DNA of 61,767 nt, from positions 1 through 61,767 of the forward strand of contig JANWWQ010000001.1 in NCBI GenBank assembly GCA_025055635.1. Reading direction: 5' to 3'. A model generated the notes under the pieces. That model made no database searches. It saw only the letters and a program-made list of their open reading frames with translations, and was not told the DNA's origin. This document shows, in pieces, positions 38,728 to 55,420 of the stretch. Each line of letters starts with the position of its first letter. The stretch's first letter is position 1. This DNA comes from Flavobacteriales bacterium. GTDB taxonomy: Bacteria > Bacteroidota > Bacteroidia > CAIKAF01. The translations under genes and the position numbers were made by a program.

Positions 38728-38735
38728 TAATTTTG
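38728..38735 (+). promoter_or_regulatory. Predicted -7 promoter element of the subtilase gene
   Basis: TAATTTTG matches TAnnTTTG and ends 6 bp before the ATG at 38742, which would make the transcript start on the ATG itself. No -33 element is clear. Confidence 0.5.
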
Positions 38736-38741
38736 AAAGTT

Positions 38742-41700
38742 ATGCGTCCAAAATTTCAATTTATTCAACTGTGGACTGCTTTATTGTTTTTTTTCATCTT
38801 TTTCTGGGCACGGGATGTTCACACCCAACGAGGATTAAATATTCCTACCGAATATTCTGAAGGGGTTCATTATGAGTCGGGAGTAGCGGTTGCAAAACTT
38901 CCTGAGGGTCTGGATGAGTCTGTTCTCCAAGAGCCTGGCATATCTGCCCTATTGCAATCCTGGGGCTTGGAGTGGCAAAAATTTTTCCCTCAGGCTGAAA
39001 AGCCCTCCAAAAGGTTTAATGATTTTGGCGAACCATTGGTGGACTTGACTAGAATAATACGTTTTGAATGGCAACATGAAGAATCTGTAAAAGAAATGCT
39101 TCTTAAACTCCGCACTCTCACAAATTGGGAATATCTTCAGCCGTTGTACTTCTATGAACCAATCGGAGAGGAAAAGACCACTTTCATTCCTTCCGATCCC
39201 AATATCAGTAGCCAATATTATTTAGGCCTTATACAAGCCTATGAGGCCTGGGATATTACGCAAGGCGATACCAACGTGGTGGTGGCCATCGTGGACGGAG
39301 GCACCAACTTCGGGCATGCCGATTTGCAGAACTATAAGTACAATTATGGCGATCCGCTGGATGGACTTGATAACGATGGTAACGGTTATTTAGATGATTG
39401 TTGCGGTTGGAGCACGGGAAATAATACCAATCAGACCCAGTACAACTTTAATGGGGGTAGTAACCACGGGGTATTTGTCAGTGGTGTGGCCAGCGCTACG
39501 ACCAACAATGCCATTGGCATTGCCGGCGTGGGTTTTGCCTGTCGGTATATGCCAGTAAAAATAGTGAATCCAAGTGGACAGTGGAACGGAGGCATCGCTG
39601 GCATTTTTTATGCTGCCTTTATGGGAGCTGATGTGATAAATTGTAGTTGGGGCAGTATTTATCCTGACCCTTTGCTAGAAGACGTAACACGCTATGCCGT
39701 TTTTAACAAAAACTGTCTTTTGGTTGCCGCGGCGGGCAATTCTAATCCTTCCTCCCACGTGCCCTACTACCCGGCTGCCTACGAGTGGTGTATGGCCGTT
39801 GCGGGTACTACGGCTTCCGACCTGAAGTGGGGGACCTTCACCTCAGGATCCTCGTATTACGACGAAGTAGATATATCCGCGCCCGCCCATAACATCCTCT
39901 CTACGTCGGTATCTGGATATGCAACCAGCTCCGGTACCTCATTCTCCACACCGATGGTGTCGGCCGCTGGAGCTTTAGTGAAATCGGTCTTTCCCACTTA
40001 CCAGGCCCGTCAAATCAGGGCGCTTCTCATTGAGCGTTCCGACGATATTTACGGACTGCCCGGGAATGCTCCCTACTTGCATAAACTAGGTAAGGGTCGG
40101 TTGAATGTTTTTAAAGCAGTCCAAGGACCTACAAGTCCATCCCCAGAAATGATCATCCGGACCATCTCGGATGGTAACGATAATCTTCCTCATGCCGGTG
40201 AAACCGTTTCTCTTTCGGGCCAATTCATTAATTGGCTATTACCCTCATCGCCTGCGCTTACAGCCACCTTGTCCACCACCTCGCCCCATATTTCAATTAT
40301 TGATCCTACCACTATCATAGGATCTTTAGGCACGTTAGGCACCTTCAATTCTTCAGCTGATCCTTTTGTCTTTACTGTGCTTCCTTCTTGCCCTCCGGAT
40401 CACCGGGCTTTATTTATTGTTCAATACACCGACGGGGCTTACACCCACCGGCAGGTATTCCATTTGACTGTGAATCCTTCGTATGTGGACATTACCATTA
40501 ATGCATGCCACAGTACAGTGGCCTCTAATGGAAGAATTGGCTTTGCGGACGAGGATTTGTATTTTGGAAAGGGCTTAAGTAAGAATGGACTGCGTAATGC
40601 CTTAGAGGCTTGTTCCTTTATCGTAGGCAACAGCTCCTCTCGCGTGTCTGACGCTACGTTTGGTTCCTCCGTAGTGCCTTTTGACCAGGACTTTGTTCCA
40701 GTTCAGCCGGCTTTGCCTGTAGTTCCCTCTGTGGTCAGTCATTATGATGTGGCAGGCGTTTTCAATGACCATGGTGCTGGGGCTGCCAAGCTGAACGTGG
40801 AAGTCAGTTACCGGGCATATGCCTGGAACAATCCTGGAGATCAGAATTTCATTATTTTGGATTATGTAATAAAAAACACTGGCAGTTCCCATTTGGCCAA
40901 TGTATATGCAGGGCTTTTCGCCAACTGGCGCATTCTTAATGGTCAGGCTTTTACATGGGATAATGTGGCTGCTTGGGATGCATCGCGAAACTTAGGTTAT
41001 GTTTATTCTTCTCTAAATCCACAAGGGGGATATGCGGGCATTAAATTTTTGGGTTATACACCCCCGGCCTATTATGCATTCAACAATGACGGGGCGGGGG
41101 GATCCATTAATGTGTATGATGGCTTTACCACGGCTGAAAAATGGCAAGCTCTGAGCAACGGCGTGTCCCGGCCCACGTCCAGCCCTGGCACTACATCATC
41201 TCTGATTGGCACAGGGCCTTTTGATATTGCTGCTGGGGCTTACGCTCGGGTGTCTTTTGCCCTGGTTGTGGGTGACAATCTAGGCCAGCTGCAGGCGGCA
41301 GCCGATGCTGCTCAGCTCCGCTACGAGAGCCTCTTTAGTCAATGGACAGGCTCAGTGAACAACGACTGGAACAATCCGGCCAACTGGTCCCCTTCTGGTG
41401 TCCCAACCGCAGGGCAAGATGTGCTTATTGGAAGTGCACCCCACCAACCCCATACCAGTGGTCCCTCTCAATGCCGGGACCTGGTGGTGAAAACAGGACA
41501 AACCCTCTACGTGGAGCCGGGGGCTCCACTGACTGTGAACCGTATGCTGGTAAACAATGGCCAGGTGATCGTAAACCACAGTCCCGGACTTGTGCAGACA
41601 TCAGAAAGTATCCTCGCAGGCAATGGAACCTGGAAAGTGAGACGTCAGCTTGTTAATTCCGGTTTAAGCCATCATTTTGTGGGTAGTGCAGTGGCCCCTT

Positions 41701-42983
41701 TCTCTTTGTCAGATGTGGCCGCAGATATTGGGGGCTTTGGCCTGAATTCTTATGCCACTTTTGACGGGATTAATGTGCAGATGGCCACGTGTTCTCCCCC
41801 CTATTATATCACTCCTACTTCACCGTACGGGAACATTTTGCAATACAATGAAGCTGAGGTAACCACCTGTCATATGGAGGGCTGGGAAGTGCGTACCGGT
41901 GGCTCCGGCCAGTCTGGACGGGGGTATGCGGTGCTTGCCCCCTCTGGAACCTGGTTGGATGTTAATGGTACTATCCATAATCAGGAGGTAGTGTTCTCCG
42001 GGGTGACGCGGACCGCTACCAACAGCAGTTTATTCCAAGGAATCAATCTGGTGGCCAACCCCTATCCGTCTTCTTTGGACTGGTTGGCATTTCGAGCCTC
42101 CAATCTGGGGGCCATTCAAGGTTCCGGATACTTGTATAATCAGGGATCCTGGGTCACTTTGGATGCCTTTACCCCGGGACAGCGCATTGCTCCCCTGCAA
42201 GGTTTTGAAGTGGAAGCCTGGAATATTCCTGGAGTGTATTCCATCACATTCAGGAACAACCAGCGAAGCGCCGGTATGTCGTCTTTTTTTTCAGAGGGCG
42301 AACCTTACAGCGGGCGCCTGATTATAACGGTCATGGACCCGTCGTCCGGTCGTCAACAGGAGGCATTCGTGTATATCACGGAAGCTGCGACTTGGCAATG
42401 GGACCCCGCTCTGGATGGCAAAAAGTTTCCCAATGATGCTCATTGGCCAGATTTATGGCTGCGCACCCGTCACGATTCTTTGCCTTACAGTGTGATGGCT
42501 ATACCTGCATTGACTAACTCCGATACGCTATGGTTATGGCTGAGTCCACCCGCTGGGACCTCTGAGTTGGTTTTGCAAGTGGAAGGACTGGGTTTTGGAA
42601 CGGACCTTCCTGCCTGGGCGCAGCTTCATGATACTTCTGGTGCTGAATTAGCCGTATTCTCATCCACAAGTCCCTCATGCACGCTCTCAATTTTCGGGGC
42701 AAAAATGTTTTACCTCACTTTCCACTCCGGCGCAGGGAGTGTAGGTGCCTCCGATGCTGAACAAAACCTAGCCTGGTTTATCTATCCAACTGTCCGGTTC
42801 AGTAATTCTGTAAATAATGGTTTCTGGAAATTATTTGATGCCACAGGCCGCATGGTGGCTTCAGCTAATATCACTGGAAATCAGGTATGGCTTCCTTCGG
42901 GTTTGGCTTCGGGCGTCTATGTGTTTTCCTGGTTAAATTCTAGCACGGGAACCCAGAACTGGATGCGAATATTGATTCCATAA
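38742..42983 (+). CDS. Secreted S8 subtilisin-like protease with T9SS sorting domain
   Basis: 1413 residues from the ATG at 38742; an in-frame TTG at 38733 lies inside the promoter box and is rejected. A signal sequence (LWTALLFFFIFFWARDVH) is followed by a ~130-residue pro-region. The S8 domain shows Asp185 (VVVAIVDGG), His242 (SNHGVFVSGVAS), the oxyanion Asn333 (AAAGNSN) and Ser400 (SSGTSFSTPMVS). A Ca-like DNDGNGYLDD stretch lies nearby. About 900 residues of beta-rich domains follow, including a TGSVNNDWNNPANWSPSGVP segment typical of secreted Bacteroidota proteins. The end (FWKLFDATGRMVASANI, LASGVYVFSW) is a type A sorting domain. It is expected to be surface-bound or released; its substrate is unknown. 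Confidence 0.93.
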   Translation: MRPKFQFIQLWTALLFFFIFFWARDVHTQRGLNIPTEYSEGVHYESGVAVAKLPEGLDESVLQEPGISALLQSWGLEWQKFFPQAEKPSKRFNDFGEPLVDLTRIIRFEWQHEESVKEMLLKLRTLTNWEYLQPLYFYEPIGEEKTTFIPSDPNISSQYYLGLIQAYEAWDITQGDTNVVVAIVDGGTNFGHADLQNYKYNYGDPLDGLDNDGNGYLDDCCGWSTGNNTNQTQYNFNGGSNHGVFVSGVASATTNNAIGIAGVGFACRYMPVKIVNPSGQWNGGIAGIFYAAFMGADVINCSWGSIYPDPLLEDVTRYAVFNKNCLLVAAAGNSNPSSHVPYYPAAYEWCMAVAGTTASDLKWGTFTSGSSYYDEVDISAPAHNILSTSVSGYATSSGTSFSTPMVSAAGALVKSVFPTYQARQIRALLIERSDDIYGLPGNAPYLHKLGKGRLNVFKAVQGPTSPSPEMIIRTISDGNDNLPHAGETVSLSGQFINWLLPSSPALTATLSTTSPHISIIDPTTIIGSLGTLGTFNSSADPFVFTVLPSCPPDHRALFIVQYTDGAYTHRQVFHLTVNPSYVDITINACHSTVASNGRIGFADEDLYFGKGLSKNGLRNALEACSFIVGNSSSRVSDATFGSSVVPFDQDFVPVQPALPVVPSVVSHYDVAGVFNDHGAGAAKLNVEVSYRAYAWNNPGDQNFIILDYVIKNTGSSHLANVYAGLFANWRILNGQAFTWDNVAAWDASRNLGYVYSSLNPQGGYAGIKFLGYTPPAYYAFNNDGAGGSINVYDGFTTAEKWQALSNGVSRPTSSPGTTSSLIGTGPFDIAAGAYARVSFALVVGDNLGQLQAAADAAQLRYESLFSQWTGSVNNDWNNPANWSPSGVPTAGQDVLIGSAPHQPHTSGPSQCRDLVVKTGQTLYVEPGAPLTVNRMLVNNGQVIVNHSPGLVQTSESILAGNGTWKVRRQLVNSGLSHHFVGSAVAPFSLSDVAADIGGFGLNSYATFDGINVQMATCSPPYYITPTSPYGNILQYNEAEVTTCHMEGWEVRTGGSGQSGRGYAVLAPSGTWLDVNGTIHNQEVVFSGVTRTATNSSLFQGINLVANPYPSSLDWLAFRASNLGAIQGSGYLYNQGSWVTLDAFTPGQRIAPLQGFEVEAWNIPGVYSITFRNNQRSAGMSSFFSEGEPYSGRLIITVMDPSSGRQQEAFVYITEAATWQWDPALDGKKFPNDAHWPDLWLRTRHDSLPYSVMAIPALTNSDTLWLWLSPPAGTSELVLQVEGLGFGTDLPAWAQLHDTSGAELAVFSSTSPSCTLSIFGAKMFYLTFHSGAGSVGASDAEQNLAWFIYPTVRFSNSVNNGFWKLFDATGRMVASANITGNQVWLPSGLASGVYVFSWLNSSTGTQNWMRILIP

Positions 42984-48883: not shown

Positions 48884-49945
48884 TTAACGTTGGCTTTTCT
48901 TTAATCTTGTTGTGGAATATAAAGCCAAGAAAATAAATAGAGAAACCACCATACTTACGATGATGGAAAAGGTGTTCCAGGAAGAATTTCCATATACAAA
49001 ATAAATGGCAAACAGACCGCCGAAAAGGGAAATAAGTAAATATAGAATTGCCACCTGGCGTTGGGAAAAGCCATTAAACACGAGGTTGTGTGTGGTGTGG
49101 TCACGCCCCCCCACAAAAGGACTTTGACCCTTTAATAGACGATTGATGGTGACAGTAGCGGTATCTGAAATTGTAACTATGAATACCAACACAGGAATTA
49201 AAATATTTTTTGATTGAATGAACTGACCGTTTACGTCGGTGGCATTCCACAGGAATTTTACACCTAGCCAGGCCAAAAGCATTCCGATAAATTGGCTACC
49301 GCTGTCACCCATGAACATTTTTGAGGGATACCAGTTGTGGTATAGAAAACCCAGAAAGCTACCCATCATTCCCACCGAAATTAAAAGGTAAAAGTCGTCA
49401 TCGGTAAGATTGAGAATCTGAAAAATAGAAATAAATAATAATATTACGAAACTTACGGTTGCAGTTATTGCATCCATATTATCAAGCATGTTGAGCGAAT
49501 TCATTAAGCCTACGACCCAGAGAAAGGTGGTTATGTAATTGAGGGTTTCTACTGGGAAAACCCGTATGTAATTATCGGATATTATAAAAACGATGGCACA
49601 GGAAACCTGTACTAAAAACTTTATAAGGGGCTTGGTGTTGTATGCATCGTCGGCAAGTCCCATGACGAAACCCGCAACAGCGCAATACAGAAACCCCCAA
49701 AGATGAACTTCATAATATTTTTCTTTTATCATATTCGAAAAAAGAGCTATAATGACAAGGATCAGGAAAACCAGAAAAAAAGTAATTCCTCCAAGAGAGG
49801 GCTTTCTTGCGGGATTCCAACGTATTTCCTCGGAGATATCGCGGGTACCTAGATTGGTAGCAAATTTTAATAATAAAGTATTGAAAATGACTGTGAGCAA
49901 GCAGGATATAAAGAAAATAATTCCCAGTAGGTAAATCTTTTCCAT
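48884..49945 (-). CDS. MraY/WecA-family glycosyl-1-phosphate transferase
   Basis: 353 residues, about ten membrane segments. It transfers a sugar-1-phosphate from a UDP-sugar to undecaprenyl phosphate, starting a lipid-linked glycan. Motifs: KPSLGGITFFLVF, the Asp segment GLADDAYNTKPL, LNMLDNMDAITA, SKMFMGDSGSQFIGM and the cytoplasmic GGRDHTTHNLV in place of the HxH loop. It differs from MraY at 27824 and groups with WecA/WbpL-like enzymes; the exact UDP-sugar is unknown. Its start shares one base with the rfbC stop. Together with the export genes upstream it probably starts the repeat unit of a capsule or exopolysaccharide. Confidence 0.88.
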   Translation of the reverse strand: MEKIYLLGIIFFISCLLTVIFNTLLLKFATNLGTRDISEEIRWNPARKPSLGGITFFLVFLILVIIALFSNMIKEKYYEVHLWGFLYCAVAGFVMGLADDAYNTKPLIKFLVQVSCAIVFIISDNYIRVFPVETLNYITTFLWVVGLMNSLNMLDNMDAITATVSFVILLFISIFQILNLTDDDFYLLISVGMMGSFLGFLYHNWYPSKMFMGDSGSQFIGMLLAWLGVKFLWNATDVNGQFIQSKNILIPVLVFIVTISDTATVTINRLLKGQSPFVGGRDHTTHNLVFNGFSQRQVAILYLLISLFGGLFAIYFVYGNSSWNTFSIIVSMVVSLFIFLALYSTTRLKKSQR

Positions 49946-50481
49946 CAGAAAGGAGACTGAAAATTTCTGAACAAAATACCCTTAGAGTCTTTTTCAGATA
50001 AAATCGGATCATGGATGGGCCAGGGAATGGCCAGGTCGGGATCGTTCCACAAAATACATCGTTCCGAATCTCTGTGATATGGCGCTGTTATTTTATACTG
50101 AACGAGGGTGTTGTTTTCTAGTGCAAGGAAACCATGGGCAAATCCAGGAGGGATCCATAAAATGTGTCTATTTTCTTCGGAAAGTAATTCGGCATGAAAT
50201 TTTCCGTAGGTAGGAGAAGATTTTCGGAGGTCCACCACCACGTCAAAGATTCTTCCTTTAACTACACGGACTAATTTCCCCTGTTCTTTGGGAGGCACCT
50301 GAAAGTGAAGCCCTCGTAACACATTCTTATGGGAGCAACTTTCATTATCCTGAACAAAAGTGAATCCCGTGGATTTTTGTATAATTTCATTAAAAGATTC
50401 TATAAAATAGCCCCTATGATCTTTGAAAACACGTGGAATAAAAATAATTAAATCGGGAAATGAAAGATTAACTTTCTGCAT
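49945..50481 (-). CDS. rfbC: dTDP-4-dehydrorhamnose 3,5-epimerase
   Basis: 178 residues, normal for RmlC. Cupin enzyme that epimerises dTDP-4-keto-6-deoxyglucose in dTDP-L-rhamnose synthesis. Motifs: FKDHRGYFIESFNE, the substrate-binding NVLRGLHFQVPPKEQGKLVRV with the catalytic His, VVVDLRKSSPTYGK and WIPPGFAHGFLALE. The other rhamnose genes rfbA, rfbB and rfbD are not in the window. The start lies 14 bp inside the end of the autokinase gene. Its presence suggests that the polysaccharide made here contains L-rhamnose or a related 6-deoxysugar. Confidence 0.96.
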   Translation of the reverse strand: MQKVNLSFPDLIIFIPRVFKDHRGYFIESFNEIIQKSTGFTFVQDNESCSHKNVLRGLHFQVPPKEQGKLVRVVKGRIFDVVVDLRKSSPTYGKFHAELLSEENRHILWIPPGFAHGFLALENNTLVQYKITAPYHRDSERCILWNDPDLAIPWPIHDPILSEKDSKGILFRNFQSPF

Positions 50482-52987
50482 TTGATTTGGGCAGTTTTCT
50501 CCGGAATAAACGAATGTAAAATGGTTCTTTTTTATCTATTCCTTTTTCCTGGTCATAATACCCATATCCATATCCATATCCGTACCCATACCCATATCCA
50601 TAACCATACCCATAACCGTAACCATACCCATAAGCATAGGAACGACCATATCCATAGCTATAACCATAGTTGTAAGAATATCCATACCCGTATTTTCCAG
50701 CTTTCTGCAAGTCTACACCGTTAAGAACAACCGAAAGGTTACCAATCTTACTTTCATGTCTAAGATGATTCAAATTGTTTATAAAAAACCTTCTGGAATA
50801 TTCTGATCGGAATACATAAATAGGGAAATCGGCTTTTGTCATCACGGCAATGGCATCCGAAACTACTCCTACAGGTGGATTGTCCACTACGACGTAGTCA
50901 TAATTTTTTCTGAGGAACTCCAAAAGTTCGTTCATTTTGGAACTTAGCAAAAGCTCGGAGGGATTGGGCGGGGGAGGACCGGCTGTAATAAAGTCCAGAT
51001 TATTTAACTTACTTGGTTTAATACAATCTTCAATCCCCGATTGACCGCTCAGGATGGTACTCATTCCTACGTTGTTATCGGTCTCAAATCCTAGGTGAAT
51101 TTTTGGTTTTCGCAAGTCGCAGTCCAGCAGAACAACACGGCTTCCTGTAAAGGCCAGGATCCCCGCTAGGTTAATAGTGACGAAAGTTTTGCCTTCTCCT
51201 GAAATGGTGGAGGTGATAGCTATCACTTTCGATCCTGGTGCATTATTAAGGAATTGAAGGTTAGCCCGAATGGTTCGGAATGCCTCTGCTATGAGTCCCT
51301 TGGGCTTTTTATCAATAACAAGCTGAGAGATGGGGATATCCTCTTTATACTTATGCACCATACCCAAAATGGGGGCATCGGTATACTTTGCAATATCGGA
51401 AATGGCAAGTATTTCGTCAAAAAACAAATATTTTAACAAAATAAGAATTAGAGATAATATTAGCCACCCTGCAAGGCTTGAAATGATGATGAGCTGCCGG
51501 TCGGGGGCAATAGGCAGTTCCGGGGTTACGGCATATTGAAGAATCTGATATTCCGGTACGTAACCTTCTTTAGCCAGCATGTATTCTGTTCTTTTGTCAA
51601 TAAGAGAATTGTAATACTTTTCATTGATGGCTTGTATTCTCCGAAGCTTTGCCAGTTCGATGTTAGAAGTATCTCCTTTTTCGCTCCCCATCTGGGGCAG
51701 TAGAATGGCCTTTAATTTTGATATATTTTCATTTATTGTATTCAGCCGATTATTATAAACTTCACGAATAGTTTTTGCACTTTGGACAAGAGCATCTTTT
51801 TGAATTCTAATTTGATAATCAATAGCATCAAAGGCTTTGCTATTGGGCGTTACATTATAGGCTATGTCCTCTTTTCTAGCTAATAAATTTCTAATTTGAT
51901 TTAAAATAGGACTTAAATATTTTTCCGTTTCTGTTCCAGAAAGGATTACTAGCTGCTCGTAAATATCCGCAGATGAGAATTTTTCTTTCTGGAGAATATT
52001 ATCCAGAAGTTGAAGTTCCAGCTCTAATTTTAACTTAGCATTTTCCAATTCAAATAGAATCTGGGTTTGATTGTTGATATCTGTTTCCATTGGCAGGAGC
52101 GCTCCGTCTTCAAACAGGCGCGTTAACCCTGATAGCTTTTTTTCGTTTTCTGAAAGTTTTTCTGTGACAAGGCCAAGGGTTCTGTCAATATAAGCGATGA
52201 CATTATTGGCACTTTCCTGCTGTTTCTCGGTATGAAAAACTTCAAATTCCTTGGCCATGCCGTTTACGAAGTCGGCGGCCTTAACGGGGTTGTTATCTTC
52301 AAGCGTAATCTCTATAGTTTTAGCAGCCTCGTTGAGTACTTTGACTTTAAGATTTGTTTTATACTTTAGAATGTGTTTTGTTGGGTCGTTGATTATGAAG
52401 TAAAAGTCGCCTTTTACTTTTTCTAATTTTTCGTAATCAGGGTTTATTTTTAACCGAAATTCAGGAAAATCAACCCAAACGCCCAAGCCGACAGTTCTTT
52501 TCGTTTCGTTGTTCTTTATTTTGTAGAATACCTCAGCTACAGTACCGGAGAATCGGACGTAAACCGGCACACCGAATATTTTTTTATCAATCACTTCATA
52601 TTCTATGGTATACGGAGATTGTTTATACATTTCAAAGTCAATGATATTGCCCTTATTAAAATAGCTTACATCTAGGGCCAGCTTTTCAATCACCCGCTGA
52701 ATGAATACCGAGGAGCGTAAGAGCTCTACTTGTTTGGCTATATCATCAGCATACAATTGGCTCGTACCTTCAATAATATTGGATTTTTGTTTATTGGAGT
52801 CGCTGGTAAGTTGAATGATGGATTTTGTCTGATAAATAGGCTGTGTGTAACGAATAAGCAAAAATGCCGTGGTAACGGATATGAGTAAAAGTGTAACAAT
52901 CCATACGATATTTTGAAATATCACCATCATCAGGAGCCTTGGATCAAAGTCCTGATTTATTTGTGGAACTGGCTTAATGTGGGCCAT
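50468..52987 (-). CDS. Wzc-type polysaccharide co-polymerase and tyrosine autokinase with Gly-Tyr tail
   Basis: 839 residues. A Wzz domain with membrane segments at about 24-45 and 499-520 and a long periplasmic coiled-coil part between. The cytoplasmic BY-kinase domain has Walker A STISGEGKTFVTINLA (593-608), Walker A' VVLLDCDLRKPK (618-629) and Walker B DYVVVDNPPVG (697-707). The tail 766-811 holds 23 tyrosines in 46 residues, including an unbroken (Gly-Tyr)12 run at 787-810, followed by a basic end (RLFRRKLPKSN). In known Wzc proteins a C-terminal Tyr cluster is autophosphorylated in trans and controls chain length; this cluster is far longer than the usual few tyrosines. One base separates it from the export lipoprotein gene upstream. 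Confidence 0.95.
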   Translation of the reverse strand: MAHIKPVPQINQDFDPRLLMMVIFQNIVWIVTLLLISVTTAFLLIRYTQPIYQTKSIIQLTSDSNKQKSNIIEGTSQLYADDIAKQVELLRSSVFIQRVIEKLALDVSYFNKGNIIDFEMYKQSPYTIEYEVIDKKIFGVPVYVRFSGTVAEVFYKIKNNETKRTVGLGVWVDFPEFRLKINPDYEKLEKVKGDFYFIINDPTKHILKYKTNLKVKVLNEAAKTIEITLEDNNPVKAADFVNGMAKEFEVFHTEKQQESANNVIAYIDRTLGLVTEKLSENEKKLSGLTRLFEDGALLPMETDINNQTQILFELENAKLKLELELQLLDNILQKEKFSSADIYEQLVILSGTETEKYLSPILNQIRNLLARKEDIAYNVTPNSKAFDAIDYQIRIQKDALVQSAKTIREVYNNRLNTINENISKLKAILLPQMGSEKGDTSNIELAKLRRIQAINEKYYNSLIDKRTEYMLAKEGYVPEYQILQYAVTPELPIAPDRQLIIISSLAGWLILSLILILLKYLFFDEILAISDIAKYTDAPILGMVHKYKEDIPISQLVIDKKPKGLIAEAFRTIRANLQFLNNAPGSKVIAITSTISGEGKTFVTINLAGILAFTGSRVVLLDCDLRKPKIHLGFETDNNVGMSTILSGQSGIEDCIKPSKLNNLDFITAGPPPPNPSELLLSSKMNELLEFLRKNYDYVVVDNPPVGVVSDAIAVMTKADFPIYVFRSEYSRRFFINNLNHLRHESKIGNLSVVLNGVDLQKAGKYGYGYSYNYGYSYGYGRSYAYGYGYGYGYGYGYGYGYGYGYGYGYYDQEKGIDKKEPFYIRLFRRKLPKSNAES
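50561..50632 (-). repeat. (Gly-Tyr)12 coding repeat, 6-bp unit
   Basis: Twelve tandem hexamers GGN-TAY on the minus strand. Codons vary (GGG 5, GGA 4, GGT 3; TAT 10, TAC 2) and the longest exact tandem stretch is three GGATAT units. The wider Tyr-rich coding segment spans 50555-50692. This is not a CRISPR array. Confidence 0.9.
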
Positions 52988-52988
52988 T

Positions 52989-53789
52989 TCAGTTAAAAAC
53001 GTTTCTAATTATAAAGAAAGATGTGACAAAATTTGAAGCTACAAAAACAAAAGTTAGCCAGGGTAACACTTCTTCCCTGAGATAATCTATGAGCCTTTCT
53101 TGGGGTTCTACGTAAATAATATCATTGGGTCTAAGTACCAAGTCTGCATCCTTCATACCCTCAATTGTAGCCAAATTGATTAAATAGATTTTTGGATTTT
53201 TGAGATCTCCTCGTATCAGCTTTATACGGTAAGCCTTAGCGCCTCTGCTAAGGCCTCCGGAGGAGGCTATGGCTTCGAAAAGCGTCATATTCGGATTTTC
53301 AAAACGCACAACCTTGGCCGAACCACCCTGTCCAGGAAACACGATAACCCTTTGATTTAAAACTTTTACCTGTACATAGGGATCCCTGTAGTGCTTAGAA
53401 AATATTCGTTCCAGTGTATCTTCAAGTTGACGGACATACATACCTTGTACTTTGAGGCGACCCACCAGGGGAAGTTTGATGGTGCCGTCATACTCAACTG
53501 TGAATACCACCTGTGTGCCTTGTCTGCGGGCCTCATTAAATTGTCTTGTTAGTTCCAAGTTTGCTCCTACAATGTCAATCAGAGGAAAGCCTCCATCGGC
53601 TACTAACAGAATGGATAACTCATCATTAATACCTATTACATATTGTGAATCTCTTACGGCAGGGAATTCATCATACTTGTAATTTTTGGGAGTACGAATC
53701 ATTATGGAAGGGTTCATATACCTGCATCCCGGCAAAAAAAAGGCTACACATATCAGCAATAGAACTAATTTAATTAATTTTTTAATCAC
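52989..53789 (-). CDS. Polysaccharide export lipoprotein (Wza/Poly_export family)
   Basis: 266 residues with a GTG start at 53787-53789. The lipoprotein signal ends at Cys22 (CVAFFLPGCRYM). A Poly_export domain follows (QYVIGINDELSILLVADGGFP), then VEYDGTIKLPLVGRLKVQG and an SLBB-like part (NQRVIVFPGQGGSAKVVRF, NDIIYVEPQERL). A C-terminal hydrophobic stretch (LTFVFVASNFVTSFFII) may cross a membrane. It should form the outer-membrane channel for a capsule or exopolysaccharide and work with the autokinase encoded 1 bp downstream. It is the first gene of a tightly packed seven-gene run and has a -7 box 28 bp before the start. Confidence 0.93.
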   Translation of the reverse strand: MIKKLIKLVLLLICVAFFLPGCRYMNPSIMIRTPKNYKYDEFPAVRDSQYVIGINDELSILLVADGGFPLIDIVGANLELTRQFNEARRQGTQVVFTVEYDGTIKLPLVGRLKVQGMYVRQLEDTLERIFSKHYRDPYVQVKVLNQRVIVFPGQGGSAKVVRFENPNMTLFEAIASSGGLSRGAKAYRIKLIRGDLKNPKIYLINLATIEGMKDADLVLRPNDIIYVEPQERLIDYLREEVLPWLTFVFVASNFVTSFFIIRNVFN

Positions 53790-54229: not shown

Positions 54230-55420
54230 TCAGGTTTTTTGGTTTAGTAATTTTTCATACAGGTTTCTCATGCGTTCGGCTAGGGAAGTGGCCGAAAATG
54301 TGTGGGCTACAAATTCTCTGGCCGTATTGGCCATGCGTAAACGGAGTGCGGTATTCCGATATAGTTTATTCATGGCTTGTGCCAAAGCAGATTGTTGGCG
54401 AGGGGGTACTAAGAGAGCTGAAACTTTTTCTAATGTTACATCGCGCACTCCCCCCACGTCTGTGCTTATCACAGGGAGTCCAGCGGCTTGGGCCTCAATA
54501 AGACTTACGGGGGTACCTTCATTATCACTTGAAAGTACCACCACATCAAGTGCTGGCAGTAGGTGTTCAATATATTTTACCCAACCGGTAAAGAAAATGT
54601 CGGCCTGGCCGTCATAGGTAATATAGCAAGAAGTAAGCCCTAGTCTGGCCGCCTGGCCACGGAGTTTATCCAGCAGGGGTCCGTCCCCAACCACTAAAAG
54701 CATGGGTTTTGGGGAGGCAGATTGAGCAACCTCTGCAAAGGCGTTGAGCAGCAGGCTATGGTTTTTTATGGGTGCCAGCCTACCGATAGTGCCAAAGATG
54801 AATCGCTCAGGCGGCAGCTGAAAGCGCCGGCGGGCTTCAAAGCGGTGTTCCGGGCCTAAATGTAGGAAGCGCTGCAGTTCAAATCCGAGAGGCACCACAT
54901 GGATTTTTTCTGGAGGGCAAATCCGGTGCAAGGAGGCCAATTCCTCCTTTTGTCGGGGGCTTACGGCGATGATGGCGTCACTGAGGCGGGCCAGGTATCG
55001 CTCCAGGCTTTTGAAAACCCTGGTTTTCAGGGGCCCAAAATAGGAGTGAAATACGTGTCCGTGGAAAGTGTGGACAGTAACAGGCACACCACAAAGCTGC
55101 GCGGCCAAACGGCCGACAGCCCCTGCCTTAGAGGCATGGGTGTGCACAATGTGGGGCCTAAATTTTCGGATGAGGCGTATCACTTCAGCCAGTGTGACCG
55201 TGTCCCGAAAAGGATGAATTTCCCGGCCCATAGAAGGCAATACCTGATATTCTACACCAAGATCTTTTAAGATGTATTCAGAGCTTTCCTCTCCGGGTTC
55301 ATGGGGGGCACCCACTAATAGAGTTTCATATTCGGGGGCAAGGTATTTGGTAAGAATACCTACGTTGTAAGTGGGCCCTCCTAGGTTAAAGCGATTTGTG
55401 AGGCGCAGAATGCGAGGCAT
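54230..55420 (-). CDS. Glycosyltransferase family 4
   Basis: 396 residues, GT-B fold. N-terminal LRLTNRFNLGGPTYNVGIL with the acceptor-side Gly-Gly motif, then HIVHTHASKAGAVGRLAA and VTVHTFHGHVFHSYF. The C-terminal donor domain has FIFGTIGRLAPIKNHSLLL, a VVGDGPLLDKLR segment, and the catalytic region DVVVLSSDNEGTPVSLIEA with conserved Glu residues. Donor and acceptor are unknown. The ATG shares one base with the asnB stop, so lpd-asnB-GT form one transcript. It may contribute to the polysaccharide exported by the adjacent operon. Confidence 0.92.
   Translation of the reverse strand: MPRILRLTNRFNLGGPTYNVGILTKYLAPEYETLLVGAPHEPGEESSEYILKDLGVEYQVLPSMGREIHPFRDTVTLAEVIRLIRKFRPHIVHTHASKAGAVGRLAAQLCGVPVTVHTFHGHVFHSYFGPLKTRVFKSLERYLARLSDAIIAVSPRQKEELASLHRICPPEKIHVVPLGFELQRFLHLGPEHRFEARRRFQLPPERFIFGTIGRLAPIKNHSLLLNAFAEVAQSASPKPMLLVVGDGPLLDKLRGQAARLGLTSCYITYDGQADIFFTGWVKYIEHLLPALDVVVLSSDNEGTPVSLIEAQAAGLPVISTDVGGVRDVTLEKVSALLVPPRQQSALAQAMNKLYRNTALRLRMANTAREFVAHTFSATSLAERMRNLYEKLLNQKT

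Follow-up and report, generated by a model that had tools for sequence, protein, structure and literature searches.

A 23-tyrosine Gly-Tyr tail on a flavobacterial BY-kinase is the extreme of a tail type widespread in class Bacteroidia

The BY-kinase encoded in the window (the whole 61,767-nucleotide stretch of Flavobacteriales DNA analyzed here) carries a tail of 23 tyrosines in 46 residues, which is the extreme of a lineage-wide tail type in a known kinase family and not an oddity. By analogy with Wzc of E. coli K30, this tail is probably an extended YxY track that would serve as the autophosphorylation substrate of an exopolysaccharide-controlling kinase.

The kinase, its gene cluster and its tail

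The gene (50468..52987, minus strand) encodes an 839-residue BY-kinase/PCP-2a polysaccharide co-polymerase, in which the Pfam domains Wzz, GNVR and AAA_31 all score above cut-off in one chain. The protein also exceeds the cut-off of the tyrosine autokinase domain model TIGR01007 (166.4 bits against 108.05) and has Wzc, CapAB, Etk, BceF and VpsO as PDB relatives; a Foldseek fold search returned the kinase domains of CapAB, Wzc and BceF as top matches, with 3bfv the best. The original prediction of a Wzc-type (PCP-2a) tyrosine autokinase thus stands in the broad sense only, because the protein falls below the Wzc equivalog cut-off (NCBIfam PRK11519, 185.7 bits versus 1068). Walker A (residues 594-602, TISGEGKTF; 51182..51208), Walker A' (residues 620-628; 51104..51130) and Walker B (residues 697-706; 50870..50899), all on the minus strand, were located by alignment, and their key residues K600, D624 and D702, equivalent to Wzc K540, D564 and D642, are each present in 106/106 class members. 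The ExxRxxR oligomerisation motif (E568, R571 and R574) is invariant among 21 orthologues. Nearly all organism-named relatives of the kinase carry the label Bacteroidetes or Flavobacteriales, and it is the single BY-kinase detected in the window's draft genome (2.3 Mb, about 94% complete). Judged from its sequence, the gene is an ordinary single-chain exopolysaccharide-control BY-kinase, Wzc-like in the broad sense.

The surroundings of the kinase gene point to an exopolysaccharide cluster, since they include, all on the minus strand, genes for a Wza-like outer-membrane polysaccharide export (OPX) protein (52989..53789; Pfam Poly_export and SLBB_2), the dTDP-4-dehydrorhamnose 3,5-epimerase RmlC (49945..50481; Pfam and NCBIfam TIGR01221), a WecA-like polyprenyl-phosphate sugar-1-phosphate transferase (48884..49945; Pfam Glycos_transf_4) and a group 1 glycosyltransferase (54230..55420; Pfam). 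The 3' end of the kinase gene shares 14 nt (50468-50481) with the start of rmlC, an overlap that suggests translational coupling. As candidates for a cognate phosphatase, family matches to the low-molecular-weight tyrosine phosphatase LMW-PTP were found on other contigs of the same genome; a search of this draft genome for a CpsB-type PHP phosphatase found none. Elsewhere in the window, a large ORF (38733-42983) encodes a subtilisin-like (S8) protease whose C-terminal region, inspected by eye in translation, resembles a type IX secretion sorting domain.

The tyrosine-rich tail occupies residues 766-811 (50555..50692, minus strand), is composed of 23 Tyr, 17 Gly, 3 Ser, 1 Asn, 1 Arg and 1 Ala, and is predicted to be disordered (pLDDT below 50). 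Within it lies an unbroken (Gly-Tyr)12 at residues 787-810 (50558..50629, minus strand), and TRF detects a hexanucleotide tandem array. Retranslation reproduced exactly the coordinates and counts first reported for the tail and its repeat, as well as the use of three Gly codons (GGG 6, GGA 6, GGT 5, GGC 0) and both Tyr codons (TAT 19, TAC 4). All but one of the tyrosines (22/23) fall on one parity, and 20,000 shuffles of the tail letters never gave a GY run longer than 8, so that (GY)12 is not a chance product. Nor is the repeat likely to be the assembly error against which the original prediction had cautioned, because the frame is open, the codons are diverse and the tail of a genus-mate is similar. 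On the opposite strand, an antisense ORF of 80 aa (50482-50724) rich in His-Thr/His-Ile probably reflects nothing more than the GY codons of the kinase strand.

The tail ends in a terminal tyrosine pair and acidic box, YYDQE (residues 810-814; 50546..50560, minus strand), and the pattern YY.?[DE] is shared by 73/79 named relatives. It is followed by a basic amphipathic C-terminal element (residues 821-834, EPFYIRLFRRKLPK; 50486..50527, minus strand), for which a single-chain AlphaFold2 model of kinase and tail gave a helix at 823-829 with modest confidence (pLDDT blocks 55-76). Class-wide, the five residues past the last Tyr hold on average 2.5 acidic residues versus 0.84 in shuffles, and the basic stretch beyond the acidic box is more amphipathic than shuffles (combined Z 6.1; motif 88 versus 56.6). 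For window residues 812-839 by themselves, the amphipathicity falls short of significance (P 0.11). Tails from the phylum's other classes lack the amphipathic signal and show the acidic box only weakly. We would guess that the basic element touches the membrane or a subunit.

Tyrosine number and spacing across the phylum

We collected 158 tails from the phylum (including the window's own and leaving out its duplicate), 106 from the same class, Bacteroidia, and 52 from other classes. Among the Bacteroidia tails the median Tyr count is 11 (range 4-24) and the median GY run 5, with runs of at least 3 in 79% and at least 7 in 41%; among those of the other classes the corresponding medians are 9 and 1. 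The same picture emerged from 79 named relatives, in which GY runs reach 17 units (L197); these loci partly overlap the surveyed genomes, and duplicates were dropped before statistics were pooled. The expectation that such tails typically carry 4-8 Tyr is borne out by literature examples from E. coli, Vibrio and Porphyromonas gingivalis, but not by the kinase's own class, and the contrast with Proteobacteria is based on E. coli Wzc and published papers.

Among 172 distinct class tails that of the window has the most tyrosines, 24 when Tyr 824 past the cluster is included, followed by 21 and 19. The comparison of tail length and Tyr count among homologues that had been proposed thus gives the window the highest count, but on a continuum. 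In kind the tail does not stand out: most of the class has GY tails, and strict runs of 13-17 units, longer than the window's 12, occur in other relatives. Runs of at least 14 units were sought in 297 genomes of the phylum and found in one, in the BY-kinase of G099. The kinase of genus-mate G001 (80% identical) has 21 Tyr and a longest GY run of 5; the two tails share their start and end, differ in the middle and are unequal in length. Close relatives with a short cluster and intact polysaccharide control had been named as counter-evidence to a special role of the tail, and the first half of this was found, in that orthologues within the same family have just 8-9 Tyr (L005, L020 and L022). A literature search, with subscription journals mostly outside its coverage, turned up no description of such tails, and YGYGYGY gave no match on bacterial kinases.

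Two further relatives deserve mention. The genus-mate also encodes another BY-kinase, less closely related (L084, G001:C1:10000-12600; 33% identical) and with a (GY)14 tail; a search of the window's genome, a draft about 94% complete, detected no paralogue of this kind. In L258 the tail stops after one Tyr (DIKKSRGY), with a kinase domain 92% identical to that of a protein with a full tail; a frameshift or assembly error is a possible cause.

The pattern conserved in the class is one of spacing. Across class tails 72% of Tyr-Tyr spacings are of two residues, YxY occurs 801 times versus 434 in composition shuffles (Z about 30), YY is depleted (116 versus 451) and the parity coherence of Tyr is 0.835 versus 0.588 when shuffled. 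A generic low-complexity tendency of the genomes was rejected as a source, as 36/36 of the GY runs of at least 7 listed from 60 genomes lie within BY-kinase genes. We also rejected an effect of base composition, given that neither Tyr count nor GY run correlates with gene GC.

Length change, selection and competing readings

When relatives were compared in 42 independent pairs, 26 pairs agreed in tail length and 16 differed, the difference being even in 12 of 15 usable cases, consistent with whole GY units being gained or lost. The 26 equal-length pairs differ in their tail codons by 276 synonymous versus 20 replacement changes, compared with 1935 versus 598 in the kinase domain (Fisher P about 2e-13), a contrast that is inexact because tail and domain differ in codon make-up. 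Had the GGN and TAY codons changed neutrally, most differences would be replacements; the few seen argue for selection at the protein level. This evidence comes from other pairs and holds at the level of the family, the window's own pair being unequal in length. A constraint on DNA or RNA is disfavoured, because synonymous sites differ freely.

Of the explanations that compete with a YxY track, the one that fares best, while still unlikely, is a redundant pool of substrate, that is, a flexible stretch of equivalent tyrosines in which any register binds, total charge weakens the ring and the number of Tyr drifts through 6-bp units above some minimum. It would accommodate the 16 pairs that differ in length, the mostly even differences and the nearly pure repeats that form the runs of a few relatives (L105, L152 and L075), as well as the finding that in E. 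coli the extent of phosphorylation matters and no single Tyr does (PMC11986026). However, a mere pool of tyrosines has no need of the conserved Gly positions or of a two-residue spacing so far above composition shuffles; moreover, tail length matches in 26 of the 42 pairs even though their codons have diverged.

Tyr- and Gly-rich segments can phase separate, and a tail predicted to be disordered and rich in both residues might form the phase-separating or amyloid-like assembly of the original prediction, which would cluster unphosphorylated kinases and disperse on phosphorylation. We regard this as very doubtful, since condensation through stickers and spacers requires neither strict alternation nor a terminal YY-acidic box, and short-tailed homologues are common. 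The phosphorylation counter that the original prediction linked to polysaccharide length is speculative.

Least probable of all is a neutral or artefactual repeat, produced by recent DNA slippage or misassembly and devoid of a role in the protein, to which the hexanucleotide array and the near-identical units of a few relatives would lend themselves, but which is at odds with the strong synonymous excess across relatives, with a codon usage in GY runs close to that of the remainder of the same genes, and with adjacent units that are identical no more often than under unit permutation (2 versus 2.17 expected in the window's run; 115 versus 121.4 in 51 runs of at least 6 units). Recent slippage as sole cause was rejected for the family on these permutations and the synonymous and replacement counts.

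The original prediction held that the amino-acid pattern is kept by selection and not by recent slippage. Its first part is upheld across the family by the synonymous excess and by units no more alike than permuted ones; its second part is less secure where the source of length change is concerned, given the even differences and the few relatives with near-identical units, whose repeats look recent. The strict run as such is not kept, not even in the genus-mate. Comparison of the sequences supports, for the family, a division in which slippage or a like gain and loss of units probably makes the length variants and selection holds the alternation.

An extended YxY track and its known counterparts

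The closest functional reference is K30 Wzc (PDB 7NHR and the 2025 YxY-ratchet structures), which likewise fuses a Wzz/GNVR-type membrane part to a BY-kinase with Walker A, A' and B motifs, has a Tyr-rich, YxY-spaced tail ending in a YY pair and is encoded in a cluster with an OPX gene. Its tail, however, has 7 Tyr in 14 residues (705-718) and the protein ends soon after, whereas the window kinase has another 28 residues after the Tyr tail, which include an acidic box and a basic, amphipathic C-terminus. Within the same phylum, the characterised Ptk1 of P. gingivalis is similarly a single chain with a transmembrane part, Walker motifs, an RK cluster and a C-terminal Tyr cluster, but its autophosphorylated tyrosines are 6 in 16 residues (PMC8863745). 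CapA/CapB of Staphylococcus aureus shares the kinase fold (3bfv), and the CapB tail inserts in the neighbour's active site; unlike the single-chain window kinase, CapA/CapB consists of two polypeptides and its Tyr tail is shorter. The GY-tailed BY-kinases across Bacteroidia have the same domains, (GY)n tail, YY-acidic box and basic amphipathic end, the window differing from them by the highest Tyr count sampled, with strict runs of up to 17 elsewhere.

In K30 Wzc, the tail enters the active site of the neighbouring subunit (PMC11986026, PMC8285477), phosphorylation begins at Y717/Y718 and moves from there towards the N-terminus, a ratchet places the Tyr at i-2 in a pocket, and the octamer no longer persists once four phosphates have been added (PMC11986026). 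Transferred to the window, the BY-kinase would control export and polymerisation of the exopolysaccharide made by the surrounding cluster, with the tail as its putative autophosphorylation substrate. In a ring such as that of K30 Wzc, one Tyr would sit in the neighbour's active site and the Tyr two residues earlier in a nearby pocket, and the tail would advance by two residues per step, beginning at the terminal YY and moving in the direction of the kinase domain. Being about three times as long as that of E. coli, the tail could offer many registers before its slack is gone, and hence accept more phosphates before the ring is pulled apart. Lineages may stretch or shrink the track in whole GY units, the alternation itself being maintained by selection. 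The sequences directly show the family, the intact catalytic residues, the tail itself, its class-wide conservation and the protein-level selection; autophosphorylation, the ring, stepwise movement along the track and any effect of its length are extrapolated. We favour this reading because a regular (GY)n is as expected of a long track and the terminal YY, with an acidic residue after it, resembles that of K30 Wzc.

The main weakness of the track model, as far as a sequence alignment can tell, is the replaced pocket glutamate. E675, which in E. coli Wzc has been proposed to exclude phosphotyrosine, aligns with F735 in the window kinase, and two other residues of the pocket, S679 and P536, are replaced as well. 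Phe occupies the E675 position in 52/106 class members and Glu is outside the six commonest residues there, which suggests that the ratchet's selectivity step, in the form described, has not been retained. A further objection is that a slack tail of this length could be used out of order. No fixed number of Tyr appears to be required, since length varies among relatives and some family orthologues have 8-9. A broader scenario, which we put forward as a long shot, is that in Bacteroidia the short Wzc Tyr cluster has been extended into a long and evolvable YxY track, flanked on one side by the kinase domain and on the other by an acidic start box plus a basic, possibly membrane-touching helix, and that track length would set the number of phosphates before the ring opens and so tune polysaccharide output or length.

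The current ratchet model of how the Tyr-rich tail of BY-kinases would control polysaccharide polymerisation derives from a single E. coli protein, whose tail is short and has one break in its YxY pattern. The natural (GY)n tails found throughout the class, regular and of varied length, are ready-made tests of whether such a ratchet depends on the order, the spacing or the number of its tyrosines.
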